The position numbers and the translations under genes were made by a program. A DNA stretch of 64,000 nucleotides from Nitrospiraceae bacterium (GTDB lineage Bacteria; Nitrospirota; Nitrospiria; Nitrospirales; Nitrospiraceae), in assembly GCA_019637075.1 (NCBI GenBank), contig JAHBWI010000005.1, positions 248,001 through 312,000 on the forward strand, in the 5' to 3' direction. Each line of letters opens with the position of its first letter. Within the stretch, counting starts at the first letter, position 1. The notes under the pieces are model-generated. The model had not been told where the DNA came from. It saw only the letters and a list, made by a program, of their open reading frames with translations, and ran no database searches. This document shows positions 61,273-64,000 of this stretch, one piece after another.

Positions 61273-63270
61273 CTAAGACTTCAACTCAAGGTTTTGCATC
61301 CGTAACGCACGGATGCGGTTCCGCAGTTCCGCCGCCCGCTCGAATTCCAACCGCTTGGCCGCCGCCTTCATTTCCGCTTCCAGACGCGCCACGACCTGCA
61401 CTTGGTCCTCATTGGCTTTGTAGGAGGTCGAAGCCTCGGCCGCCAGGTCCAATTGCACATAGTCTACCTCGGCAGCGGCATATTCCAGCGCAGGAATGCT
61501 CTTCCGCACGCTCTCCGGCGTAATCCCATGGGCCTCGTTGTAGGCAGCCTGGATCGCCCGCCGCCTGGCGGTTTCTTCCATCGCCACCCGCATAGAGTCC
61601 GTCACCGTATCACCGTAGAACAGCACACGCCCATCCACATTCCTCGCCGCACGACCCGCCGTTTGGATCAATGACCGATAGGAGCGGAGGTACCCCTCCT
61701 TGTCCGCATCCAGAATCGCCACCAAACTGACTTCGGGCAAATCCAAACCTTCGCGCAACAGGTTGATCCCGACCAGTACATCAAACGTCCCGACCCGCAG
61801 ACTGCGAATGATCTCAGCCCGCTCCAACGTCTTGATGTCCGAATGCAGGTACCGCACTTTGACGCCCAGCTCGTGATAATACTCCGTGAGATCTTCCGCC
61901 ATCCGCTTCGTCAACGTTGTCACAAGCACCCGGTTTTTCTTGGCCACCTCTGCCTTCACTTCGCCAAGCAGATCGTCGACCTGCCCCTTGGCAGGGCGCA
62001 CCTCGATCACCGGATCCATCAAACCGGTCGGGCGGATGATCTGCTCGACGACCTCGCCCCTGGCATGCTCAAGCTCGTAAGGACCAGGTGTCGCCGACAC
62101 ATACACGACTTGATTCAAACAGTGTTCGAACTCCGCAAACTTCAACGGACGATTGTCGACCGCCGACGGCAACCGAAATCCATAGTCGACCAGCGTTCGC
62201 TTCCGAGAAAAATCTCCCTCGTACATCCCGCCAACCTGAGGCACCGTCGCATGGGATTCGTCCACGATCAGGAGAAAATCCTTGGGAAAGTAATCCAACA
62301 ACGTCGGCGGCGGCTCACCCGGGGCACGACCGCTCAAGTGACGCGAATAGTTTTCGATGCCATGGCAGTAGCCCATCGCCCGGATCATCTCGAGGTCGAA
62401 CTTGGTCCGTTGCTCGATCCGTTGAGCCTCCAGCAACTGGCCATTCTTGGTGAAGGCCGCGATTCGCGCGTCCAACTCTTCTTCGATACCGGTAATGGCC
62501 CGCTCATACCGGTCCGGCGCAATGAGATAGTGCGTATTGGGATAGATCGCGATCTTCGGCAATTTTCCAAGCGACTTGCCGGTCAGGGGATCGATCTCGT
62601 GAATGGCATCCACCGTATCGCCGAACAACTCGATTCGCACCGATTTTGCCTCGGAGGACGCGGGAAAAATTTCAACGACGTCGCCCCGCGCGCGAAACGT
62701 GCCGCGATGGAAGTCCACATCGTTGCGCGCATATTGAATCTCCACCAGTTTGGAGAGTATCTGCTCGCGCCGAACCTCCATGCCCTCTTCGAGATAGACC
62801 AACATGTCGTGGTACACCTCTGGCGATCCCAGGCCGTAAATGCAGGAAACCGACGAAACGATCAACACATCGTTGCGCTGCAGCAGCGAGGCCGTGGCGG
62901 CATGGCGCATCTGATCGATGGCATCGTTGATCGAAGAATCTTTTGCGATGTATGTGTCGCTTTGCGGAATGTAGGCTTCCGGCTGGTAATAATCGTAATA
63001 GCTGATGAAGTATTCGACTGCGTTGTGCGGAAAGAACTGTTTGAACTCCTGATAGAGTTGGCCCGCCAGCGTCTTGTTGTGCACCAGCACCAGCGTCGGT
63101 TTCTGCACCCGCTCGACCAAGTTGGCCATCGTGAAGGTCTTGCCGGAACCGGTCACGCCGAGTAAGACTTGGTGCTTCTTTCCGGCCAAGACACCGGCGG
63201 TCAATTTTTCAATCGCCTGGCCTTGGTCACCGCAAGGTTTGAAGGGCGCGTCGAGCTTGAAAGGCGGCAT
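61273..63270 (-). CDS. uvrB: UvrABC excinuclease subunit B
   Basis: Damage-verification helicase of nucleotide excision repair, 665 residues. [16 protein letters not shown] (Walker A, about 38-53), the beta-hairpin region [33 protein letters not shown] (Walker B), [20 protein letters not shown] (motif V) and a C-terminal UVR motif ([13 protein letters not shown], about 645) are all present. The start ATG at 63270 begins [10 protein letters not shown]. It is divergent from an S24/LexA-like repressor gene only about 130 bases away, so damage control by that repressor is plausible. Confidence 0.97.
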
Positions 63271-63368
63271 CGTGTAGGCATCTTAACACGTTCGATTCTC
63301 CAGCGAACGCATCACAGTCGCGTGGCGTAGGGTTATCGTTCTTCGGCAATGCACGCCTTTCGGCCCCC

Positions 63369-63407
63369 TTGACGGAGCCGACTCGTTATGTAACGATTCG
63401 TTACATG
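63369..63407 (+). promoter_or_regulatory. Promoter with palindromic operator covering the -10 and start codon of the XRE-S24 gene
   Basis: TTGACG (63369-63374), 16 bases and TAACGA (63391-63396) form a promoter. The perfect palindrome ATGTAACGATTCGTTACAT (63388-63406, 9-base arms around one central base) covers the -10, the expected start point and the first two bases of the ATG at 63405. Together with an upstream CGTTA at 63384-63388 it gives three alternating CGTTA half-sites. This suggests self-repression and a leaderless transcript. Confidence 0.65.
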
Positions 63408-63950
63408 CGGCCGAGCGACCTCAAAAAAGCCCGCCAGACCCTTGGGCTCACACAGGAACAGCTCGCCGAGCGGCTGAAAACCACCCGCCAGACCATCGCG
63501 CGGTACGAACTTGGCACCCACAAGATCCCGTTTGCCGTGCGGCTGGCCGTCGATCACCTGACGGCTGGAGCGCGCATTCCCCTGGCCGGAATGGTGGCCG
63601 CCGGCGATCCGATCGAGCCGATTCCGCAGACCGAAATCGCGGAGGTGCCGCCCGGCATGGTGGGACGCGGCGAGACCTTTGCGCTACGGGTCAAGGGCGA
63701 GTCGATGCGGGACGAGGGTATTCTCCCCGGCGATCTCGTCATCGTCCAGAAGCAGGCGACCGCCCGTAACGGTCAGACGATCATCGCGTTGGTCAACAAC
63801 GAGGCCACGATCAAGACCTACTACCGCAAAGGCAGCGTGATCGAACTGCGCCCAGCGAATGAAACGATGGCACCGATCGTGATCAAACCGACCGACTCCC
63901 TGCGGATCGAAGGCCTGGTGATCGGAGTCATTCGATACTGCCGCAAGTAG
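63405..63950 (+). CDS. XRE-family HTH / S24 LexA-like self-cleaving repressor
   Basis: A 181-residue repressor. Residues 1-55 are a Cro/CI-type HTH (RPSDLKKARQTLGLTQEQLA, KTTRQTIARYELG) rather than the winged helix of LexA. The C-terminal S24 domain has an Ala-Gly cleavage site in GMVAAGDP (Ala66-Gly67), catalytic Ser100 in KGESM and Lys137 in NNEATIKTYY. The 37-residue Ser-Lys spacing equals E. coli LexA (119/156). The ATG at 63405 begins the domain; the frame is open 36 bases upstream. RecA-stimulated cleavage and control of the divergent uvrB are inferred from family and location. Confidence 0.88.
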   Translation: MRPSDLKKARQTLGLTQEQLAERLKTTRQTIARYELGTHKIPFAVRLAVDHLTAGARIPLAGMVAAGDPIEPIPQTEIAEVPPGMVGRGETFALRVKGESMRDEGILPGDLVIVQKQATARNGQTIIALVNNEATIKTYYRKGSVIELRPANETMAPIVIKPTDSLRIEGLVIGVIRYCRK

Positions 63951-64000
63951 GACGGGATACTGAGACATATGCGACAAAAACCTGCTTGCAGAGAGTTTAT

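Follow-up and report, generated by a model that had tools for sequence, protein, structure and literature searches.

The Repressor Locus

The window, that is the whole 64,000-nucleotide stretch of DNA analysed here, comes from a Nitrospiraceae genome that spans 4.06 Mb on 22 contigs and has Nitrospira as its nearest named relatives. Close to its end, a repressor gene and uvrB point away from each other across a gap of 134 nt, confirming the divergent arrangement that was read from the sequence at the outset, and a palindrome lies over the repressor start. The features of the locus are as follows.

61273..63270, minus strand: uvrB, the divergent neighbour, adjacent only in the CGATTCG clade and probably not under operator control
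63280..63285, minus strand: -10-like box TAAGAT of uvrB, conserved, 9 nt before the uvrB ATG (L101 has one base changed beside the box)
63369..63374, plus strand: -35 element TTGACG of the repressor promoter, a TTGACA-like hexamer in the same place in 84/84 relatives
63384..63388, plus strand: third CGTTA half-site, absent from L007-L009, L101, L201 and L202, all of which share the operator
63388..63406, no strand: palindromic operator ATGTAACGATTCGTTACAT, which spans the -10 region, reaches two bases into the start codon and changes clade by clade with the recognition helix
63405..63950, plus strand: XRE-S24 (head-swapped LexA) repressor, 181 aa, with HTH_3 and Peptidase_S24 domains and its ATG inside the operator
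63486..63512, plus strand: recognition-helix region, residues 28-36, one of the operator-matched variants
63600..63605, plus strand: Ala66-Gly67, the LexA-type self-cleavage bond, invariant in 39 relatives
63702..63704, plus strand: catalytic Ser100, invariant in 39 relatives
63813..63815, plus strand: catalytic Lys137, invariant in 39 relatives
63986..64000, plus strand: start of a dnaE2 C-terminal remnant frame (tblastn), which continues beyond the window (G000:C5:311986-312600)

The repressor passes the NCBIfam lexA cut-off (122.8 > 110.95) through its C-terminal part, and the spacing of 37 between Ser100 and Lys137 equals that in E. coli LexA. An AlphaFold (AF2) model with a mean pLDDT of 84.8 matches LexA C-terminal domains over residues 57-178 (Z ~15) and XRE domains over residues 1-54 (Z ~11, rmsd 0.9), the latter part having an all-helical XRE fold. 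The sequence-only reading had described a Cro-type HTH on a LexA-like repressor that keeps the LexA cleavage site and the Ser/Lys dyad at LexA spacing, and both halves of that description hold. The protein shares with canonical LexA the S24 C-terminal domain with its Ala-Gly bond and dyad; the winged-helix DNA-binding domain PF01726 of canonical LexA has no match in the repressor or in its genome. A PF01381-type head joined to an S24 domain is the arrangement of the XRE(HTH_3)-S24 proteins of Bacteroidetes.

In its C-terminal domain the repressor is 58-61% identical to the winged-helix LexA of Desulfobacterota (L046-L048) and only ~38% identical to the LexA of a few genomes in the same family. 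We infer that the head was exchanged within a LexA lineage, which would have placed a Cro/CI-type head on a LexA body. Strong matches to the repressor come only from two families, both in one order (77 of the 295 genomes of the phylum have them), and near-full-length scores were counted by hand in 117 of 147 family genomes. The six family genomes that encode a LexA winged-helix protein of at least ~180 aa give only weak matches to the repressor family (E ~1e-25) or none, and no genome was found to hold both a strong repressor match and a true full-length LexA.

The Cro/CI-type head could also belong to a CI-like repressor from a prophage, captured or still resident, that acts on phage functions rather than on SOS genes, the more so as lambda-like phages have leaderless repressor genes that overlap their operators (PMC4488713). 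Such an origin is very improbable, since the C-terminal domain is nearer to LexA than to CI in sequence and in fold, phage genes are absent from the surroundings read, and the gene occurs across the order with imuB-dnaE2 as its partner.

An Operator at the Start Codon

The palindrome ATGTAACGATTCGTTACAT (63388-63406) is a perfect one of 19 bases, with 9-base arms and a 1-base centre, and the repressor ATG at 63405-63407 shares its A and T with the last two bases of the palindrome. By itself it is weak evidence, because the window holds three perfect 9+1+9 palindromes where 0.3 are expected in first-order Markov sequence; it was made certain as an operator by its position and its conservation in relatives. 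The comparison covered 63 loci from named genomes and many more from family genomes, which gave 84 distinct repressors. A matching operator, a TGTnnC-N5-GnnACA-type palindrome, was found for 84/84, and for 83 of them it is at the ATG, with the palindrome ending on that codon or one codon earlier and no ribosome-binding site. In the sole exception (L032, 972-1032) the operator is set back upstream by another 18 nt, and this is the one case in which a ribosome-binding site precedes the ATG. A related operator pattern was present in 114 of 147 family genomes, and a reversed control gave almost no matches.

A TTGACA-like -35 lies 20-22 nt 5' of the operator in all 84 relatives, compared with 2.4% in shuffled upstream sequence. 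The -10 within the operator is weak in the window, and a generic sigma-70 promoter scan found nothing. Counted from the A of the ATG, the TTGACA stands at -36 to -40, which should place the transcription start on the ATG or a few bases off, and this fixed distance suggests that the repressor mRNA is most likely leaderless or nearly so, without a ribosome-binding site. The conserved layout of -35, operator and ATG likewise supports autoregulation. The relatives thus sustain the earlier proposals of a palindrome over promoter and first codon, of a start codon inside the operator of a leaderless (or near-leaderless) transcript and of a self-regulated repressor. The third CGTTA half-site, to which attention had also been drawn, does exist at 63384-63388; it is unique to the window genome and probably due to chance, because the six nearest relatives with the same operator do not have it.

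The strongest evidence that each repressor would bind its own operator comes from the half-site and the recognition helix, which change together on a repressor tree computed without the helix columns. The commonest half-site, AACCA, goes with the helix TTR(M/V/I/T), and the derived types are listed here by half-site, helix and distribution.

AACGA, helix TTRQT: the window clade, support 98
ATCCA, helix KRKRLA: one clade
GACCA, helix KTTRRS: one clade
GACAA, helix GRTRRS: one clade
AACAT, helix QLSRMT: one clade

Both operator halves are altered symmetrically in 4/5 of these derived clades. The number of perfect palindromes expected per window (~0.3), and the two others actually present, could be taken to mean that this one arose by chance beside an ordinary XRE regulator. 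That explanation has a negligible probability and was ruled out, as the palindrome keeps the same place in relatives and its changes are matched by those of the recognition helix.

Probable Targets in Relatives and the Position of uvrB

Most orthologs open a repressor-imuB-dnaE2 operon, and where imuB-dnaE2 is located elsewhere in the genome it carries its own copy of the operator. Among 57 followed sites, none of them picked as a known self site, 26 stood before imuB-dnaE2, 23 before the gene of a ~120-aa protein, 5 before further repressor copies and 3 in other places. The acidic active-site residues of the Y family are missing, as judged by eye, from the ImuB of relatives, which is what one expects of an ImuB. 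In one lineage (L033-L044, e.g., L044:4555-7798) the repressor heads genes for a ~236-aa weakly RadA-like protein, a 96-aa protein and a B-family DNA polymerase. Neither recA nor other classic SOS genes were among the targets at the stringency used. An SOS-type regulon of imuB-dnaE2 lends comparative support to the SOS-like switch that had been suggested. A check for further palindromes before repair genes, which had also been proposed, found operators ahead of imuB-dnaE2 in relatives; in the window genome, matching operators precede the two repressor genes only. The Bacteroidetes-type pattern, with an operator both in the repressor promoter and ahead of genes for error-prone polymerases, is accordingly seen in relatives, and in the window genome for the own gene alone.

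The ~120-aa protein (L148:3131-3514, L151:2635-2991 on the minus strand, L152:3034-3387 and 20 further loci) has, in most cases, an operator that overlaps its start codon, and it ends in a conserved QLRLF-like C-terminus, which we take to resemble beta-clamp-binding motifs. It gave no Pfam or NCBIfam match, and it is predicted to be mostly beta, with weak SH3/Tudor-like fold matches only (Z ~7). The protein is a candidate for a new mutasome subunit. At the start codon of a separate 408-aa gene (L183:1714-2937) there are TTGACC and an operator-like TGTAACCATTGGTTCCATG, making the gene a possible extra target.

The location of uvrB next to the repressor had led to the idea of an SOS switch in which one shared operator controls both divergent genes. 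The divergent pair is kept in seven related genomes, the two promoters stand nearly back to back in relatives, and FddR of Francisella does control itself and a divergent gene (PMC13148647). Against this, those seven genomes (window, L007-L009, L101, L201 and L202) all belong to the AACGA clade; uvrB was not seen beside the repressor in the other loci read, and the followed targets include no uvrB site outside the adjacent clade. Moreover, uvrB comes with a conserved -10-like box of its own, and measured upstream from the likely uvrB start the centre of the operator is ~69 nt away in L007 and ~125 nt away in the window; the operator lies at least 60 nt outside the uvrB promoter. Because of that distance, direct repression of uvrB by the operator appears unlikely, and the shared switch as a whole is improbable. 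As the main target, uvrB was ruled out by position and distribution.

A Repressor That Probably Outlasted Its Operon

An intact imuB-dnaE2 follows the repressor in most orthologs and is missing in the window genome, where a DnaE2 stub is all that is left. The remnant frame opens 35 nt past the repressor stop codon and shows 67% identity to residues 745-924 of the L007 DnaE2 (tblastn) before a frameshift; imuB and DnaE2 residues 1-744, three quarters of dnaE2, are missing downstream of the repressor. No other close, high-identity ImuB or DnaE2 was found in the assembly. The target operon is judged to be gutted because imuB is absent, dnaE2 is reduced to a stub and the assembly has no other close copy; what remains would be an orphan, self-repressed regulator with its operator, misassembly being possible. 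A single draft assembly, of 22 contigs and with 4.94% contamination, shows the deletion; it is the one genome of its genus that was compared, and an assembly artefact that hides an intact operon in the organism would fit such a draft. This is unlikely, given that the remnant is also frameshifted and that its lost partners do not turn up elsewhere in the assembly.

The window genome encodes a paralog of the repressor on contig C1 (L157:5635-6186, minus strand), which stands alone, is 61% identical and has the same layout of operator and start with TGTAACCATTGGTTACATG. Its CCATTGG operator has 2 mismatches to that of the window copy, and cross-regulation between the two is possible. A search of the window genome for operators with up to 3 mismatches gave the two repressor operators and one poor 3-mismatch match, a looser pattern gave no additional palindromic site, and the dinB-like genes have no operator upstream. 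A 12-kb contig (G000:C17) carries close relatives of genes on G000:C4, dinB-like with neighbours (L158, L159), possibly through contamination or a second strain.

Proposed Mechanism

These findings make it quite probable that the repressor is the SOS mutagenesis regulator of Nitrospirales, repressing itself through an operator at its start codon, and that in the window genome imuB-dnaE2 has been lost and uvrB is a bystander. By analogy with LexA, a repressor dimer would bind TGTAACGATTCGTTACA, which lies over the -10 and the start of transcription and translation, and the bound dimer would block RNA polymerase and so repress its own gene, as the comparative data suggest. Upon DNA damage, RecA filaments are expected to trigger self-cleavage at Ala66-Gly67 by Ser100/Lys137 in the manner of LexA, and cleavage would lift the repression. 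In relatives, derepression would turn on imuB-dnaE2 for error-prone lesion bypass, in the repressor's operon or in a separate one with the same operator, together with the small conserved protein; in the window genome, the only other matching site is the operator of the paralog. The pairing of repressor and operator, the overlap of promoter and start codon, the membership of the regulon and the loss of the operon here can be read from the genomes compared, and dimer binding, RecA-dependent cleavage and induction by DNA damage would follow by analogy with LexA.

A wider reading has about an even chance of being right. It holds that the whole order runs SOS mutagenesis with a Cro-headed LexA, that the operators, fused to the start codons of leaderless genes, were rewritten at least five times along with the helix, and that the minimal regulon includes an undescribed protein with a clamp-binding-like tail, perhaps a mutasome subunit. 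Nitrospira are major oxidisers of nitrite, and canonical LexA is missing from most of their genomes. The comparative data yield a regulator, an operator code and a regulon that can all be put to the test. The five changes in which helix and operator match can serve directly as data for studies of protein-DNA recognition, and a probable case of regulon decay, in which the repressor outlasts its target operon, is seen in the window.

Comparison with Known Systems

No description of SOS control in Nitrospira was found in the open-access papers searched, where a search for Nitrospira and LexA gave nothing relevant. Canonical LexA (PF01726-PF00717) has the same cleavage site, Ser/Lys dyad, C-terminal domain and repair-polymerase targets, whereas the Nitrospirales repressor is without the winged helix and has a different operator. 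In the lexA-regulated imuA-imuB-dnaE2 mutagenesis cassette (PMC3919608, PMC6511836), an SOS repressor likewise stands over imuB and dnaE2, and it is the first gene of the operon in many Nitrospirales orthologs. In contrast to that cassette, imuA was not seen in the Nitrospirales operon, the repressor is the head-swapped form, and one lineage has the RadA-like protein, the 96-aa protein and the B-family polymerase instead. The lambda-like phage cI/cro system also has a leaderless repressor mRNA that starts at the AUG and an operator at the promoter (PMC4488713); the Nitrospirales gene differs in being chromosomal, with a single operator per gene and repair partners.

Bacteroidetes use an HTH_3-S24 non-canonical LexA for their SOS response (PMC8565304). 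There, too, a PF01381-type head with an S24 peptidase replaces canonical LexA, the operator is a palindrome with a 5-base centre, autoregulation is combined with error-prone polymerase targets, and the motif diverges among paralogs (e.g., TTAC-AAATT-GTAA). The Nitrospirales system belongs to another phylum, has the motif TGTnnC-N5-GnnACA with the operator fused to the start codon and a body ~60% identical to Desulfobacterota LexA, and its regulon, as seen, is smaller. FddR is an S24 repressor of Francisella with a small damage network (PMC13148647); it resembles the Nitrospirales repressor in its phage-type head, palindrome autoregulation and paralogs in some genomes. However, FddR groups with lambdoid repressors, controls a divergent gene and uses the motif GTG-N11-CAC, whereas the Nitrospirales repressor has a LexA-like body and its main target downstream. 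The combination seen in Nitrospirales, in which a LexA body goes with start-codon operators and a distinct minimal regulon, was not found in the open-access papers searched and appears to be a new variant. It would be the third case of XRE-S24-based SOS control, and one that apparently arose through a head exchange within LexA, not through capture of a phage repressor.
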